The position numbers were made by a program, and so were the translations under genes. Source: Nitrospirales bacterium (GTDB taxonomy: Bacteria; Nitrospirota; Nitrospiria; Nitrospirales; UBA8639). Taken from it: DNA of 38,285 bases. Under the pieces are notes generated by a model that ran no database searches, was not told the origin of the DNA, and worked only from the letters and a program-made list of their open reading frames with translations. Each line of letters begins with the position of its first letter. Position 1 is the first letter of the stretch. Shown here one piece after another: positions 13,416 to 25,247 of the stretch. The stretch is from NCBI GenBank assembly GCA_022825885.1, contig JAJDVY010000026.1, positions 1 to 38,285 of the forward strand. The letters are read 5' to 3'.

Positions 13416-13760
13416 TTAGTGTTGATGCCTGGTCAAATACTCTCTCACCCTATGACGATCTTCGTTTTCCTTGTCTCCTTTATAATAAATCTCGATAAAT
13501 TCAATGCGTTGTTCCTGCTCACAATACGAGTAGATGACGCGAAGGGACGACCCTTTCAGATATCGACAAAATAAACGGGCTTTGACAATGTGCACATTCT
13601 CGTTCCGTGCGATGACGGCAAAATGCTTCCGGTTCCCAAGCGGGACAACGGAAACAACGTTCTGAAACTCCCGGAGATCTTCGGAAAGCGATCGGTATTT
13701 CCTGGCAAGGCGCTTACGTTCTTTTTGAAATTCCGGCAGTTCATCAAAGGTCATCGTCAT
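13416..13760 (-). CDS. RelE/HigB-like toxin paired with Panacea antitoxin
   Basis: 114 residues from the ATG at 13760 (an ATG two codons later is also possible). The pattern is that of RelE-superfamily ribonucleases: N-terminal helices (FQKERKRLARKYRSLSEDL), then strands AVIARNENVHIVKARLFCR, LRVIYSYCEQEQRIEFIEIYY and a basic tail. Such toxins cleave mRNA on the ribosome. The gene overlaps the 3' end of the upstream antitoxin gene by about 17 bases. The order is antitoxin first, toxin second. Confidence 0.75.
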   Translation of the reverse strand: MTMTFDELPEFQKERKRLARKYRSLSEDLREFQNVVSVVPLGNRKHFAVIARNENVHIVKARLFCRYLKGSSLRVIYSYCEQEQRIEFIEIYYKGDKENEDRHRVREYLTRHQH

Positions 13761-14511
13761 AGTTTCGTACGGAGTATCTCTCGTCACGATAAAAAACACT
13801 CTCATACGAGAGCGGCTGGCCGTCTTCCGCTGATTTCCAGGGAATATCTTCGTGAGAATAGAGTTCTATTTCTTTCGCGTTTTTATCGGAGAGACGGGCG
13901 AGCACACCGTCAATATGTTCAACGTCGCGCGCAGACAGTATGGCAAGGTTCGGTCGCTGGAGGGGAAGGTACTTCTTTTGAGTGTATTTAAAATACTGGC
14001 TGTTGACCGCCTCGATTTCTCCATCCTCTTGCATCTTTTCCAGAATCTTCCCCAATTCAAGCGCGGTGGGACCATGATGATTCTTGATATACGTCGCACC
14101 CATCAGGTTTTCCTCGAATTGTTCGTAATAATCAAAATCGATGAAATACAACAGCTTATGAAGCATGGTCTCCCCCACGTTCGGCTTACCGCCGACTTTA
14201 TTCAAAACATACAGAAGCACCTGCTTGAATACGTCGAGATTTTTATTCTCAACGCGAATACGGAGGTCTCCGGTTTTTCGTGCAGGCCGTTTCGTAAGCG
14301 TCACGGTACGTCTGGATTCGCGGCCAGCCAAAAAATCATCGAGCGACATATCAAAAATTCCCGCAAGCGTTCGGGCTTCGATAACCGTAAGCTCCCGCTC
14401 GCCGCGCTCAATATGCATATAGGTGGGGCGAGACATCCCAAGCTCTGACGCAAGATACGCTTGCGTCATGTTGCGCTCGGTTCGTTGCCGTTGAATAAAT
14501 TTTCCCAGCAT
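13744..14511 (-). CDS. Antitoxin with XRE HTH and Panacea (DUF4065/SocA-like) domain
   Basis: 255 residues. Residues 1-62 form a classic HTH_3 domain (RTERNMTQAYLASELGMSRP, then HIERGERELTVIEARTLAGI). The C-terminal domain, about 90-200, has the Panacea/SocA hallmarks: VLLYVLNKVG, ETMLHKLLYFIDFDYYEQFE and NHHGPTALEL. Panacea domains are known neutralisers of many unrelated toxins. The HTH part should autorepress the operon. The toxin gene overlaps the 3' end. A palindrome TTTACA-N7-TGTAAA occurs upstream at about 14750-14768, but an intergenic repeat lies between it and the gene. Confidence 0.88.
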   Translation of the reverse strand: MLGKFIQRQRTERNMTQAYLASELGMSRPTYMHIERGERELTVIEARTLAGIFDMSLDDFLAGRESRRTVTLTKRPARKTGDLRIRVENKNLDVFKQVLLYVLNKVGGKPNVGETMLHKLLYFIDFDYYEQFEENLMGATYIKNHHGPTALELGKILEKMQEDGEIEAVNSQYFKYTQKKYLPLQRPNLAILSARDVEHIDGVLARLSDKNAKEIELYSHEDIPWKSAEDGQPLSYESVFYRDERYSVRNYDDDL

Positions 14512-14560: not shown

Positions 14561-14635
14561 TGTCATTCCCGATCCTCGGTTAAGAACGTCAAGGACAGGC
14601 TGCTAGTAATCGGGAATCCAGTGTCTTTCTCTTCC
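14561..14635 (+). repeat. Dispersed intergenic repeat, copy A
   Basis: About 75 bases starting TGTCATTCCCGATCC, with internal TTAAGAACGTCAAGGACAGG and ending near AATCCAGTGTCTTT. The outer arms ATTCCCGAT and ATCGGGAAT are inverted repeats. Related copies lie at 25173-25247 (same orientation), 24221-24286 (reverse) and 25269-25302 (shortened, reverse). Confidence 0.75.
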
Positions 14636-15464: not shown

Positions 15465-16613
15465 ATGAGAGCCCCTACTATGTCCGCAAAACCGTCCATC
15501 ACAGAACTTCATCTTCCAAGCCTGTCGATCAGAGGATTTCGTGGAATCGAGAATCTTTCGGTGGCACGATTGGGCCGAGTAACGCTTTTCACCGGAAAGA
15601 ATGGGGTTGGTAAAACAACCCTCCTTGATGCCGTCCGGCTCTATGCGTCGCGTGGCCGCCACCCTGTTCTGACGAGCATATTGCAACGTAGGGAGGAGCT
15701 TACTGAAAGTGTCGATGAAGACGGCGACGAAATTTTTATGCCTGATTGGGAAGCCCTTTTCCATAATTGGAATACTTCATCAGATGCTTGTATTGAAATA
15801 GGTCCGGTGAACAAAAGCCAACAACTCAGAATCAAGACAGCTTTGCTTAGTAGTTCAAGGGAGGCTAAGCGATGGAAGAAGTTCTTGCCACCTTATGCCT
15901 CAGAGAATGATGGGCAGTTGCTTGATATCGAGTTCCAGGGCGCAAAACAAGAAGTCCCAATACCCTTGCTTTCAAGGGCGGCAGATTTCACTTATCGCAG
16001 ATTGTCTAGAGAGGAACCTGACCTTCCACCTGAAATTCACTGCGAGTCTCTGGGACCAAGTTTGCCGAACAATTGGGACATCGCTCGATTCTGGGATAAG
16101 GTAGCCCTAACAGATGATGAAATCCGAGCAGTGGAGGCACTGAATCTGATCTTCGGTAGCAAGGTGGATCGTGTTGCGATGATCGGAGGCGAAAGATCAC
16201 GTCGAGCACCTTATGGCCGGCGAGTAGTCGCGAAGATCGAAGGACAAATTCGTCCTCTTCCCCTGAAAAGCCTTGGGGATGGGGCCGTGCGTTTGTTCGG
16301 CGTAGCCTTGGCTCTCGCTAACAGCATGGACGGTTTTCTGGTTATTGACGAAGCGGAAAACGGCATCCACCATTCGGTGCAACGCGACTTCTGGAAGATG
16401 GTTATCAAAACAGCCCACGAGAACAACGTCCAGATTTTCGCAACTACGCATGGCTGGGATTGCGTAGCAGGTTTTGCGCAAGCAGCAACGGAATCGGAAG
16501 AAGTGGAAGGAGTTCTAGTTCGCCTTGAAACCAACGGCGATGGAATTCAAGCGGTGGAGTATTCTGAAGATGAACTCCAAATCGTTGCTGAACAAGGCAT
16601 TGAAGTTCGATAG
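15465..16613 (+). CDS. ABC-type AAA ATPase of a two-gene defence-like pair
   Basis: 382 residues of the RecF/SMC-like AAA_15/AAA_21 group. Walker A is GKNGVGKTT (44-52), the signature-like segment KSLGDGAVR lies at 268-276, Walker B LVIDEAENG at 292-300, and the switch region TTHGWD at 327-332. The N-terminal strand SIRGFRGIENLSV is typical of these ATPases. In this group the ATPase often senses or gates a nuclease partner. The next gene, three bases after the stop, encodes a TOPRIM/DUF3226-like protein, as in split OLD-type systems. An internal ATG at 15480 is an equally possible start. No Shine-Dalgarno decides it. Confidence 0.85.
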   Translation: MRAPTMSAKPSITELHLPSLSIRGFRGIENLSVARLGRVTLFTGKNGVGKTTLLDAVRLYASRGRHPVLTSILQRREELTESVDEDGDEIFMPDWEALFHNWNTSSDACIEIGPVNKSQQLRIKTALLSSSREAKRWKKFLPPYASENDGQLLDIEFQGAKQEVPIPLLSRAADFTYRRLSREEPDLPPEIHCESLGPSLPNNWDIARFWDKVALTDDEIRAVEALNLIFGSKVDRVAMIGGERSRRAPYGRRVVAKIEGQIRPLPLKSLGDGAVRLFGVALALANSMDGFLVIDEAENGIHHSVQRDFWKMVIKTAHENNVQIFATTHGWDCVAGFAQAATESEEVEGVLVRLETNGDGIQAVEYSEDELQIVAEQGIEVR

Positions 16614-16616
16614 CTG

Positions 16617-17237
16617 ATGGCCAGCTTGCCCTCGCCGTCATCGGAACGCATTCTTTTAGTTGAAGGACAGGACGACAAACACGTCATTCGCCACCTCCAT
16701 GATCGCCACCAACTCAAGCCAACCTTTTGCATTTCGGAGAAGGAAAACATCGATAAATTACTTGATTCGATTACTCTGGAAATTAAAAGGCATGGACGGC
16801 TGGCCGTTGGTATTCTCGTGGACGCAAACGACGATTTAAACGCACGTTGGCAGGCTGTAACAGATAGGCTTCGGAAAGCCAAGATCCAAGCACCCACTTC
16901 ACCCAACCCAACGGGAACAATCATAAATAGCAAGCCTCGCGTCGGCATTTGGTTGATGCCGAACAACACCATGCCCGGCGAAATTGAAGATTTCGTCATA
17001 ACCATGATTCCTGAAGGTGATCCGGTATGGCCGCGGTCTCAACACTACATAGACGATATTCCGAAAGCAGAGAGAAAGTTTTCAGATGGCAAGATACAGC
17101 GGGCGAGACTTCATGCTTGGCTAGCAACTAGGGCGGACCCCAGAAAAATGGGTTCAGCCGTAGGCGCGTGTGATTTGAATATTAACGGCACTCTTTGTCA
17201 GGATCTTATCGCTTGGCTTACGAAACTGTTCGCTTAG
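16617..17237 (+). CDS. TOPRIM-like DUF3226-type partner protein
   Basis: 206 residues. The first strand and motif ILLVEGQDDKHVI carry the TOPRIM-type glutamate (Glu16). GILVDANDDLNARW (about 65-78) carries the acidic DxxD/DD cluster expected for Mg binding. Later segments (VGIWLMPNNTMPGEIEDFV, KAERKF, LHAWLATRADPRKMG) match the DUF3226/DUF4435-like pattern. It starts three bases after the ATPase stop. The likely role is the nuclease or effector of an abortive-infection type defence module. PARIS and OLD/Gabija-like systems are the nearest described comparators, but identity to any of them is not established. Confidence 0.78.
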   Translation: MASLPSPSSERILLVEGQDDKHVIRHLHDRHQLKPTFCISEKENIDKLLDSITLEIKRHGRLAVGILVDANDDLNARWQAVTDRLRKAKIQAPTSPNPTGTIINSKPRVGIWLMPNNTMPGEIEDFVITMIPEGDPVWPRSQHYIDDIPKAERKFSDGKIQRARLHAWLATRADPRKMGSAVGACDLNINGTLCQDLIAWLTKLFA

Positions 17238-17510: not shown

Positions 17511-17732
17511 CTAAATCGACACCTGCGTCTCCGTGTCGCCGTCCGAGAGGGCGTTCATGTAGGCGAGGATGAGGTCGCGGGCGCGATAGCGGCCAAATCG
17601 AGAACGTAAACTTTCAGTACGCCTACCCCAAAACTCCAACTCTTCTTGTTTCGACTTCTCTGATAATAATTGCCCAACGTATTCCGCACCATGTCGTTTC
17701 AGGGCGACACATTGAGGTTCACGAGTTGTCAT
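17511..17732 (-). CDS. Small protein of SDH-protease cassette with grafted C-terminus
   Basis: 73 residues. The first about 47 (RHGAEYVGQLLSEKSKQEEL, then FWGRRTESLRSR) form a helical, charged small protein I cannot assign. The last about 25 residues ([20 protein letters not shown] and beyond) repeat the end of a methylase remnant at 20.4 kb nearly exactly. The graft suggests recombination replaced its native end. It starts six bases after the SDH-protease stop, and its MTTRE start resembles that of the 69-residue gene upstream of the protease. Confidence 0.55.
   Translation of the reverse strand: MTTREPQCVALKRHGAEYVGQLLSEKSKQEELEFWGRRTESLRSRFGRYRARDLILAYMNALSDGDTETQVSI
17521..17593 (-). repeat. 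Direct repeat copy 1 (methylase C-terminal sequence)
   Basis: About 73 bases, of which roughly 64-65 match 20400-20472 in the same orientation, with a 39-base perfect core (17546-17584). It encodes [18 protein letters not shown]. The two copies bracket the SDH-protease and TIR genes. Confidence 0.8.
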
Positions 17733-17738
17733 AGCTCG

Positions 17739-18737
17739 CTATTTCCCTTTCTTTTGCTGGCGTCGCCGTTCCGCTCGATTACCTGCCTGGATGGGTTTGG
17801 CAGGCGGTATCGGGATCAGACCTCCCATTCTAACCCAAGCGCGCCCGTGATGATTTTCTATAATCTTCTGTGCTGGCGTACCAGCAAAAGTGTGCATTGT
17901 TGCATGATGGACTGAAAGCACTGCATCCTGAAGTTGCGCATCCTCTTCCAGATCCACGACCCTGACACCTATATCACGAGCTTGATCACGGCCAACCCGT
18001 CGGCCATGTGAGTGAAACGATTCATAGTCGGCGAACCAATCCGCAACCTTCTTGGACTTGATCTCTGCGTCTTCCTCTCCAAAAAACATATAGCGCTCTA
18101 GCCAGCCGGCAACCATACCAGACGCCAATCTTTGGGAGTCTTCACATTGGGTCAGAAGACCGGGTGCGTACGTCCTGAGAATTGGCATCCAGGCAGCAAG
18201 ATTCTCCGGTGTTTTACATTCGCGCTTGGCGAGCTCAAACTGATTGAGGATTGCTTTGGCGGGTGCTGATCGCGCCCCTTCAGGAGTGGAAATGATAAAC
18301 TGTGGATCAATTGGTCCCAGTTGTGAATGCTGCCCCATGACCAATTCGTTGGCGGAAAGCGCCATCATCGTCGCTGCGGACATAGCCGCAACAGGCACGA
18401 AAACCCGGATATGATCAAACCGTTTCCTGATGTACTCCACTAGTGATTCGGCAGCTTCTGCGGAGCCGCCAGGACTGTGTATGATGAGATCCAGGTCCCG
18501 CTCGTGGACATTGGAGACGGCCTCCATAAGACCTTGAATGTCCGGAAGTCCGACTTGTAGTTCAGCAGGTGAAATCGGGCGCGACTCAAGCCAAGCAGTC
18601 GCATAGATTATGACTGCCCTCCCAGTCAGATCGTGTAGACGTTGCAAGTATTGTCTGCGAACGCGGTCGTAGTCTGGTGTGCCGTCAGGAGTAGAGGCCT
18701 TGTTGAGTTCAGTGAGGATCTCGCCCCAAGTAGGCAT
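17739..18737 (-). CDS. SDH-family Clp-fold serine protease
   Basis: 332 residues from the ATG at 18737 (MPTWGEILTEL, the usual start of this family). ClpP/SppA-like serine protease of the 'serine dehydrogenase proteinase' group. IIHSPGGSAEAAE (86-98) forms the oxyanion-hole strand and helix. AAMSAATMMAL places the nucleophile at Ser120. GQHSQLGPIDPQF (135-147) supplies the conserved His/Asp-containing loop. The C-terminus is basic (RAERRRQQKKGK). No signal peptide is visible with this start. It overlaps the 69-residue gene by 29 bases and precedes the 73-residue gene by six, a tight three-gene unit. Longer starts at 18779 or 18833 are possible but less typical. Confidence 0.85.
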   Translation of the reverse strand: MPTWGEILTELNKASTPDGTPDYDRVRRQYLQRLHDLTGRAVIIYATAWLESRPISPAELQVGLPDIQGLMEAVSNVHERDLDLIIHSPGGSAEAAESLVEYIRKRFDHIRVFVPVAAMSAATMMALSANELVMGQHSQLGPIDPQFIISTPEGARSAPAKAILNQFELAKRECKTPENLAAWMPILRTYAPGLLTQCEDSQRLASGMVAGWLERYMFFGEEDAEIKSKKVADWFADYESFHSHGRRVGRDQARDIGVRVVDLEEDAQLQDAVLSVHHATMHTFAGTPAQKIIENHHGRAWVRMGGLIPIPPAKPIQAGNRAERRRQQKKGK

Positions 18738-18918
18738 TAGGTCTCGCTGTGTTCGTTGAATTCGAGGAGTAAACGACATCACTTCCAGAGGCCGAGGCAG
18801 ATGCCTGGATGTAAATATCTTCGACCTTTTCATAAAATTTCATCAAATCGGCCACTCCAGCTTCCTGCTTTTCAAACTCGACCTCCAGCAATTTCATCTC
18901 CCGCTCTCTAGTCGTCAT
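18709..18918 (-). CDS. Small helical protein upstream of SDH protease
   Basis: 69 residues. An amphipathic helical N-terminus (KLLEVEFEKQEAGVADLMKF, then YEKVEDIYIQASAS) leads to a Ser/Asn-rich tail (VVYSSNSTNTARPN). I recognise no named family. Translation starts at 18918 with GGGAGG seven bases upstream, and this Shine-Dalgarno lies inside a 6-bp hairpin (18926-18940). The 3' end overlaps the protease start by 29 bases. Adaptor or substrate of the protease is a guess. Confidence 0.65.
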   Translation of the reverse strand: MTTREREMKLLEVEFEKQEAGVADLMKFYEKVEDIYIQASASASGSDVVYSSNSTNTARPNAYLGRDPH

Positions 18919-18925
18919 AGCGCTG

Positions 18926-18940
18926 CCTCCCTGTGGGAGG
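18926..18940 (-). promoter_or_regulatory. Hairpin sequestering the ribosome binding site
   Basis: On the minus strand CCTCCC, a 3-base loop ACA, and GGGAGG form a perfect 6-bp hairpin, with GGGAGG as the Shine-Dalgarno of the 69-residue gene. Translation could be blocked until the hairpin opens. Confidence 0.45.
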
Positions 18941-19023
18941 ATAATGATAAACTATATCATGCACTTGTGTCCATGGCTAAAGGCTTGTTAAACAGCTGAA
19001 ATACGTGTAACCCTTTCAGATTC

Positions 19024-19884
19024 CTATACATTACCGAACTCTGTGAAAGTGTCTGAACCATTTGATTGAATGGCGTATCGGAATCGGAGTTCGTCCTTGT
19101 CGTCCCTTCTGGTATCATCCTTGATATCAAGCACGTGCACAGCGGCGTAGAAACCTTTTACATTCCGTAATACGACGACCTCCCTGCGTTGAAGAGTCCG
19201 AGCCCTTGACGTGAAGTCCAACAGAGCAGCATGCGAAACTTTTGCGATGGATGCACATCCTCGTGCCAAAGCAACGCCGTTGATTGATAGAGGATCATTG
19301 TAAATATGGATGCTAGTGTCGCCTGCTTTACTCCAACGCGTTTCAAATTCCAGCGGTCCCCGACCGATAAGATAGCGCCCATTATGGCTGCTGTAATCGA
19401 ATACTGCCTCGCCAGTCGGTGACGTCATTCGCGGAGGCGGCACATCCGAAGCCTTGCCCCCAAAACGGTTGATCCCAAGCTTTTCGGCGATCATAGCTGC
19501 AAGTTCTGCTGGCGAATGACTGTCGGCTTGTTCGTACTTGATGGAATCCGGCAAGCCGGGAACAGGCGTGTCATCAAAACGCACTGGCAAAACATACTCG
19601 GATTTCTCGCCGACTGCACGACTCAGGATCGACCGTCTTTCATGTCGTGGCCAAACCTTTTTAACGTACTCTTTTGAGATAAACATTACGGCAAAAGCAG
19701 CCCTATGCTCGAATACTTCATTCAATTCTTCTACGAGGTCTTTGCCCCAGAGTTGGACTTTCTCAAAATCATCATAGAATACTGCAATGCCGATGCTTTG
19801 GAGACACCGGGCCACATCCTCAACATACTCACGTTGTTCGCCAGCAAAGGATAGTGCTACTTCATATTGAGTGTTTTTGTTCAT
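19024..19884 (-). CDS. TIR-domain protein (probable NAD-consuming effector)
   Basis: 286 residues from the ATG at 19884; an in-frame GTG at 19911 would add nine. Residues 5-135 are a TIR domain: YEVALSFAGEQREYVEDVA (BB-loop region after), GIAVFYDDFEKVQLWGKDL, and VMFISKEYVKKVWPRHERRS with the likely catalytic Glu82. Bacterial TIR domains of this type hydrolyse NAD in phage defence. The C-terminal domain (about 150-286) is beta-rich (GRYLIGRGPLEFETRWSKAG, SIHIYNDPLSINGVALA, VVVLRNVKGFYAAVHVLDIK) and of unknown function, perhaps the sensor. The frame stays open 130 bases upstream without an ATG, so a lost N-terminal extension is possible. Confidence 0.88.
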   Translation of the reverse strand: MNKNTQYEVALSFAGEQREYVEDVARCLQSIGIAVFYDDFEKVQLWGKDLVEELNEVFEHRAAFAVMFISKEYVKKVWPRHERRSILSRAVGEKSEYVLPVRFDDTPVPGLPDSIKYEQADSHSPAELAAMIAEKLGINRFGGKASDVPPPRMTSPTGEAVFDYSSHNGRYLIGRGPLEFETRWSKAGDTSIHIYNDPLSINGVALARGCASIAKVSHAALLDFTSRARTLQRREVVVLRNVKGFYAAVHVLDIKDDTRRDDKDELRFRYAIQSNGSDTFTEFGNV

Positions 19885-20048
19885 TGATCGATCTTTCTTC
19901 TCCGTCCTCACTCTAGCGGGAGATGGCGGTTTGGGTTCTTGCTTGAAGCCGTCGATCAGATCGTGGTTGGCAGCAACAAGAACTTGCTCGGCGGAACATT
20001 GACTGTCCTGAATCTGTTACATAGGTAGTAAAGATGATGAAGGCGATC

Positions 20049-20396: not shown

Positions 20397-20655
20397 GCTA
20401 CCTGCGTTTCCGTGTCGCCGGCGGAGAGGGCGTTCATGTAGGCGAGGATGAGGTCGCGGGTAAGGTAGCGGCCGAAGGCGGCTTCGTCTTCTTTGCGGAC
20501 GATGGGGAAGGTGTCCAAGACGTATTCCGCGTCTTCCTTGGTCAGGCCGTAGAGGTGGAAGTAGAGCGCGTCGAGGCGGGCGCGCAGGTGGCGGCGTTCT
20601 TCTTCGTTCCAGACAAATGGCGGGCCATCGTAGCCAAGGTCGCAGGAAGCCGTGA
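20397..20655 (-). pseudogene. C-terminal remnant of an Eco57I-like restriction/methylase protein
   Basis: Reading minus from just after the RM enzyme stop, the frame continues without a start as [60 protein letters not shown] and [18 protein letters not shown], then stops. This is the typical tail of large Eco57I/type IIG-related proteins. Its frame is the same as that of the upstream RM gene, separated only by its TAA. It is most likely left over from a replaced RM gene. Its last 73 bases are duplicated at 17.5 kb. Confidence 0.75.
20400..20472 (-). repeat. Direct repeat copy 2 (methylase C-terminal sequence)
   Basis: Partner of 17521-17593, same orientation. This copy sits in the longer remnant and is likely the source. 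Confidence 0.8.
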
Positions 20656-24180: not shown

Positions 24181-24216
24181 CTCTACCTCCCCTCGCCCCT
24201 CCTTACAAAGGAGGGG
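24181..24216 (-). repeat. Palindromic dispersed repeat, copy 1
   Basis: CCCCTCCTT, three bases, then AAGGAGGGG forms a perfect 9-bp hairpin, extended by a GAGGGGAGGTAGAG flank. A second copy with the same flank lies at 38063-38097. Confidence 0.8.
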
Positions 24217-24220
24217 AACA

Positions 24221-24286
24221 GAAGACGCCGGATTCCCCGATCAGAGCTTGTCCTTGACGTTCTTAATCAAGGACCGGGGATGACTC
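24221..24286 (-). repeat. Dispersed intergenic repeat, copy C
   Basis: Reverse-oriented relative of 14561-14635. The core TTAAGAACGTCAAGGACA is identical, and the arms have changed together to ATCCCCGGT-type and GATCGGGGA. Confidence 0.75.
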
Positions 24287-25028: not shown

Positions 25029-25178
25029 TCAGTCCATTTCGGTCAGAAATTCCTGTATGTGTTTGATAACTCGTTGTCTCTTTCCGTCATCCCTGTAAAT
25101 GCTCACTAATTTGTTGACAGAATCCCAGGCTTGATCTGAAACGAAGCCACGGTTTGGCTTTTCGCCTTTATCTGTCAT
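25029..25178 (-). CDS. 49-residue hypothetical protein starting inside a repeat
   Basis: Starts at the ATG at 25178 and stops at 25029. The sequence MTDKGEKPNRGFVSDQAWDS, VNKLVSIYRDDGKRQRVIKH, IQEFLTEMD is hydrophilic and helix-prone, with protein-like composition throughout. The start codon and a GAGG upstream belong to repeat copy B, so the repeat may supply its expression signals. Twenty-odd bases of its 3' half recur inverted at 25291-25318. Function unknown. Confidence 0.45.
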   Translation of the reverse strand: MTDKGEKPNRGFVSDQAWDSVNKLVSIYRDDGKRQRVIKHIQEFLTEMD

Positions 25179-25247
25179 CCTCGATCCTCGATTAAAAATG
25201 TCAAGGACAGGCTATTTGCAATCGAGGATCCAGTGTCTTTATTCTTC
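25173..25247 (+). repeat. Dispersed intergenic repeat, copy B
   Basis: Same orientation as copy A. Arms ATCCTCGAT and ATCGAGGAT are inverted repeats, with core TTAAAAATGTCAAGGACAGG. Confidence 0.75.

Follow-up and report, generated by a model that had tools for sequence, protein, structure and literature searches.

A soluble ClpP-fold serine protease and a fast-evolving small partner protein form a candidate mobile two-gene module in bacteria, archaea and temperate phages

The window analysed here is a stretch of 38,285 nucleotides from a Nitrospirales bacterium (contig JAJDVY010000026.1, positions 1 to 38,285), in which the region between about 13 and 24 kb forms an island of low GC content (0.48-0.54 compared with 0.53-0.63 in most of the flanks). 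Three open reading frames (ORFs) lie in this island on the minus strand: a small gene of 69 amino acids (18709-18918), a gene for a predicted SDH-type serine protease of 332 amino acids (17739-18737) and a short ORF of 73 amino acids (17511-17732). The first two genes share 29 bases (18709-18737), and a gap of 6 bases separates the end of the protease gene from the 73-aa ORF, which agrees with the layout described in an earlier note on this DNA. A weak promoter-like sequence, TGGACA-18-TATCAT (18944-18973, minus strand), is located 26 bases 5' of the small gene, although the count of such sites was not above chance.

The extent of the overlap depends on the start codon of the protease. The mechanical ORF list opens the reading frame at 18833, giving a product of 364 amino acids, and this longer version was dropped in favour of the start at 18737, from which the protein reads MPTWGEIL. 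Since the alignment of relatives from many phyla begins at MPTWGEIL and a TGA interrupts the upstream extension in the two closest relatives (89-90% identical), the start at 18737 is correct and the 29-base overlap real. RefSeq places the protease start of Escherichia coli YPE10 57 bases late (12360 instead of 12303; L191 12099-12360) and leaves the small gene of that locus without annotation; the annotated protease start in E. coli Nissle 1917 (pair at NZ_CP022686, 454923-456041) is also late, the proper one being an MPNW codon further upstream.

The TIR, restriction-modification and AAA ATPase plus TOPRIM-like genes that the earlier note names as neighbours of the three ORFs were all recovered by Pfam or PADLOC matches. 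The AAA_15 ATPase and DUF3226/TOPRIM-like genes (15465-17237, plus strand) match the candidate system PDC-M38A/B as well as AbiLi. The TIR-domain gene (19024-19911, minus strand) is located 105 bases upstream of the small gene; its best PADLOC match is PDC-S66 and its C-terminal half is unassigned. Also in the island are a restriction enzyme of type ISP and an antitoxin-like gene of the HTH-Panacea (SocA-like) kind with an overlapping ORF of 129 amino acids (13416-14511, minus strand). The latter ORF, which has no Pfam match above the cut-off, may encode a toxin. Near the edges of the island there are three copies of a repeat of approximately 70 bp, one of them inverted (14561-14628, 24215-24284 and 25173-25240), and it is possible that this repeat is an island boundary element or a MITE. 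The TIR gene was considered as a further member of the cassette and dropped, as the long ORFs upstream of the pair in the related loci L014 and L015 differ from it in length; by this comparison of ORF lengths no TIR gene was seen there.

The earlier note proposed an undescribed cassette of three genes with two small proteins, both starting MTTRE-, flanking the protease. Only the upstream small protein has turned out to belong to a conserved family. Residues 1-46 of the downstream 73-aa ORF were found in the genus of the window only, and two genomes (G013 and G006) have them without the protease, while residues 43-73, in its 3' half, are a relic of a restriction-enzyme gene, whose end is repeated here over 77 bp. 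Two copies of this repeat, 90% identical, are present in the window (17521-17597 and 20400-20476), and in relatives its counterpart is the 3' terminus of a large ORF of restriction-enzyme type (L015:93-3791). No comparable ORF was found 3' of the protease in other lineages. The downstream ORF is a composite left by island rearrangement and not a third component, and because it is both composite and genus-specific, the cassette is taken to consist of two genes rather than three. The shared MTTRE- start is coincidental: over their first 30 bases the two small genes have 13 letters in common. The 77-bp repeat also recurs beside several cassettes in the genus, where its copies could be relics of island rearrangement or points of recombination between cassettes.

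The evidence for the upstream small gene comes from its relatives. A profile based on 25 partner sequences, with Nitrospira excluded, recovered the 69-aa ORF of the window with an E value of 2e-10, and when all ORFs of 40-200 amino acids from all fetched loci (13,277 in total) were searched, every match up to E 1 adjoined a protease gene of the subgroup described below, nearly always directly upstream. These matches, together with the alignment, show that the 69-aa ORF is a genuine gene of a conserved small-protein family. The core of the family reads xxPGVxDLMxxYxxxE, and the partners in enterobacterial prophages have GVxYSxxT...LYSY in common. The enterobacterial proteins form PHROG 25714, whose profile the window partner has diverged too far to hit; nor did it have a match in NCBIfam, PADLOC or the other PHROGs, and in Pfam there was only a sub-threshold chance match. 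Serine, threonine and asparagine make up 32% of the C-terminal 25 residues in the family compared with 16% in control C-termini, and the tail of the window partner (VVYSSNSTN) is of this type. When the partner and the protease were modelled as one chain, artificially linked through a frame-shifting reading, residues 3-17 and 22-42 of the partner were predicted as a hairpin of two helices (pLDDT about 65-70), and in this weak test the tail was disordered (pLDDT below 50) and undocked. The S/T/N tail may be no more than a flexible linker. No DNA-binding domain was found in the partner.

Pairing of the two genes is not restricted to the window. In a set whose viral loci are not fully dereplicated, a same-strand ORF of 45-110 amino acids ends within 60 bases of 93 out of 102 protease starts of the subgroup, whereas the same is true for 100 of the 327 other long genes used as a control from the same loci. 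The identity matrices of the partner and the protease are correlated (r = 0.87, a value reached in none of 5000 permutations), which shows co-inheritance, even though the partner evolves far faster (mean identity 25% against 52% for the protease). The association can also be kept in another arrangement: in G213 (L156, 1309-1491) the gene with a weak partner-profile match (E 0.16) is convergent to the protease gene and lies beside its 3' end, so the two genes can be neighbours without an operon. G001 and G012, both of the window's genus, have lost the protease by one shared internal deletion of about 826 bases, while the partner gene is intact. Several copies from metagenome-assembled genomes carry frameshifts, which may be sequencing errors. 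Taken at the level of sequence, the two-gene module is well supported.

The larger gene does encode a divergent SDH-family serine protease, which starts at 18737 and has Ser120 as its predicted nucleophile. The protein passes the PF01972 model (57.6 bits, gathering threshold 31.3) and stays below the equivalog cut-off of NF047768 (71.2 bits compared with 250), as do the E. coli members (86-96 bits). Its match to PHROG 11747 (phrog_11747) is strong (E 7e-80, residues 23-302 of 332). The AlphaFold2 model, computed with 65 relatives, is of high confidence (pLDDT 94.5, pTM 0.89), and ClpP chains rank first among the structures similar to it (Z about 13.9, rmsd 3.5, 168 aligned residues); SppA and 1510-N were also recovered with Foldseek, and fold families other than the ClpP type are absent from the PDB matches listed. 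The model thus predicts a ClpP/crotonase fold with Ser120 as the nucleophile. In the alignment Ser120 corresponds to Ser97 of 1510-N, at which position the deposited S97A mutant has alanine, and it is invariant in the 65 relatives together with S138, D144, Q146, H244, H278 and K291; the predicted nucleophile is intact. The alignment with 1510-N stops short of Lys138 of the latter, and H244, H278 or K291 are the candidate general bases. The window protease carries both the GG motif and the SxLGPIDPQ motif, and a weak similarity to phage head-maturation families was detected.

Judged from the sequences, the N-terminus of the window protease, MPTWGEILTELN, has no hydrophobic segment, while canonical Nitrospirota SDH proteases, picked up by the protease profile, start with a hydrophobic MxxFxxFFWxFLIIIAxQP. 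Among those canonical genes with a readable upstream ORF, not one has a small partner, and several follow a rhomboid-like gene. Since the canonical copies have a hydrophobic start, lack the small partner and in several cases stand behind a rhomboid-like gene, the MPxWGEIL proteases are placed in a separate, presumably soluble subgroup distinct from the canonical SDH proteases, which would be membrane-anchored. The possibility raised in the earlier note, that the small protein is missing beside other SDH proteases, consequently holds for the membrane-anchored subgroup only; almost all proteases of the MPxWGEIL type have the partner upstream.

Relatives occur in archaea, Chloroflexi, Actinomycetota, Nitrospirota, Bacteroidota and Proteobacteria. 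Plasmid copies are few (a handful among 72,556). Phage carriers include Gordonia phage BeeGee, Porphyromonas phages and Shewanella phage MuM16-1, and 221 loci were confirmed on viral contigs; on those of at least 25 kb, 24 of the 52 copies lie within 10% of the contig end (10.4 expected, p 3e-5). A match is found in 80 out of 5,426 E. coli genomes, Nissle 1917 among them, and all of these copies are chromosomal. In the five lambdoid E. coli prophages examined the pair is inserted in one of two gaps. One lies between Q and the lysis genes (Nissle 1917, 2022CK-00450 and ST536), and the other separates the lysis genes from the terminase genes (YPE10 and EC14). In lambdoid phages both gaps are positions of lysogenic-conversion ("moron") genes, and the region downstream of Q is usually subject to late transcription in lytic growth. 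The two genes have been inserted as a unit at varied accessory positions in prophages, and the pairing extends across bacteria and archaea as well as temperate phages.

The suggestion in the earlier note that the cassette lies outside the known defence systems agrees with PADLOC, in which the three ORFs of the window matched no family. A role in defence remains plausible, with the neighbours in the window and the moron positions in prophages speaking for it, while the PADLOC counts do not. In the flanks of host-genome copies 206 families were counted in 127 ORFs and 277 in 131 (1.6 and 2.1 per ORF), compared with 125 families in 105 ORFs (1.2 per ORF) in random control regions, a control that is small and not taxon-matched. 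The flanks are modestly higher and not clearly above the control; this is not a firm result, and due to the nature of the control no claim on enrichment is made. Toxin-antitoxin modules adjoin some copies (HicAB in a Porphyromonas phage, RES-Xre on an Acidiphilium plasmid), and no toxin-antitoxin or immune annotation was found among the relatives. A published case of phage resistance ascribed to a phage repressor of Nissle prophage 3 (PMC5987069) was considered and set aside as evidence for the pair, because the primers for that gene are not in the prophage which carries the pair.

As a working explanation we propose that the two genes are a mobile module in which the partner controls the protease and which serves superinfection exclusion or abortive infection, a reading to which we give a probability of roughly 0.4. 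The partner would bind the protease and hold it under control, either as an inhibitor or as a sensor or adaptor, and its helical part, which evolves fast, would be the end that does the sensing or selects the substrate. Infection by another phage would alter this control, and the released protease might then cut a host or phage protein and thereby stop the incoming phage. Phage exclusion as the purpose is inferred from the accessory sites that the pair occupies in prophages and from the defence genes close to it in the window; the absence of clear defence enrichment in host genomes and the undocked tail in the linked model, itself a weak test, count against it. In its strongest form the proposal would describe a two-component immune system, very widespread in bacteria, archaea and temperate phages and so far undescribed, acting by exclusion or abortive infection, in which a fast-evolving sensor or adaptor of 60-70 amino acids with an S/T/N tail of constant type gates a ClpP-fold protease without any ATPase; this is offered tentatively, as a version that we would not yet call probable.

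The order of the genes, with the small one first and overlapping the large one, would also suit a toxin-antitoxin or addiction module, in which the protease is toxic, the small upstream protein is the antitoxin and the main outcome is stabilisation of the mobile element rather than a barrier to phages. Survival of the partner in G001 and G012, where the protease has been lost, and the adjacent HicAB and RES-Xre modules fit such a view, but the partner has no DNA-binding domain, toxicity is not known for the pair and the rarity on plasmids is unusual for an addiction module, which leaves it somewhat unlikely. Placement close to Q or late genes, as in the E. coli prophages, is compatible with a lytic function too, and together with the ClpP fold it could point to a regulated protease in the service of the phage or the host itself. 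Such a protease might, for example, act on a repressor or on a host factor during lysogeny or lytic growth, and the small protein would be its activator or its substrate. The sporadic occurrence in E. coli, the varied insertion points and the presence of the pair in archaeal and bacterial chromosomal loci make this quite improbable. Carriage by temperate phages could likewise mean counter-defence, the protease destroying host defence proteins during infection; as chromosomal copies, including that of the window, stand next to defence genes too, we rate this as very improbable. A head-maturation (prohead) protease would account for the weak similarity to such families and for the copies amid head-region genes in Porphyromonas phages; yet many copies are outside phages, and the E. 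coli prophages, wherever capsid genes were seen, encode a separate prohead protease of S49 or ClpP-like type next to them, so that this role is largely refuted and scarcely credible. The phage-exclusion proposal can be approached directly through the prophage copy of Nissle 1917, a harmless strain, in which partner binding, protease activity and phage exclusion are testable. If it proves true, an ATPase-free, adaptor-gated protease would be added to prokaryotic immunity, from archaea to phages.

Neither the fold nor the protease superfamily is new, while the soluble subgroup and its near-constant small partner appear to be undescribed in the libraries and literature searched; of the novelty claimed in the earlier note, the part that concerns two genes therefore stands. 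The partner escaped notice because it is short, overlaps the protease gene and has no family model. In the literature searched, with subscription papers and preprints outside the search, nothing relevant was found on SDH proteases in defence, no family description of or experiment on either member of the pair was found, and experimental work on SDH-type proteases was almost absent. PHROG 11747, which contains the protease, and PHROG 25714, with the enterobacterial partners, have no function attached, and their pairing is not noted in the PHROG library. Similarly to the window protease, the SDH family (PF01972, NF047768) has a ClpP-like fold, the GG motif, a serine nucleophile and SxLGPIDPQ, but unlike the canonical Nitrospirota copies the window protease starts with MPxWGEIL, lacks the hydrophobic segment and has a small partner. 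The 1510-N/NfeD-type and SppA proteases share the fold, including the alignment of Ser120 with the 1510-N nucleophile position, and differ from the window protease in the neighbouring small partner of the latter. In Bacillus, the membrane-bound SppA is a ClpP-fold serine protease with a small inhibitor, SppI. The likeness of the pair to SppA-SppI, a ClpP-fold serine protease accompanied by a small regulatory protein, is one of analogy only.
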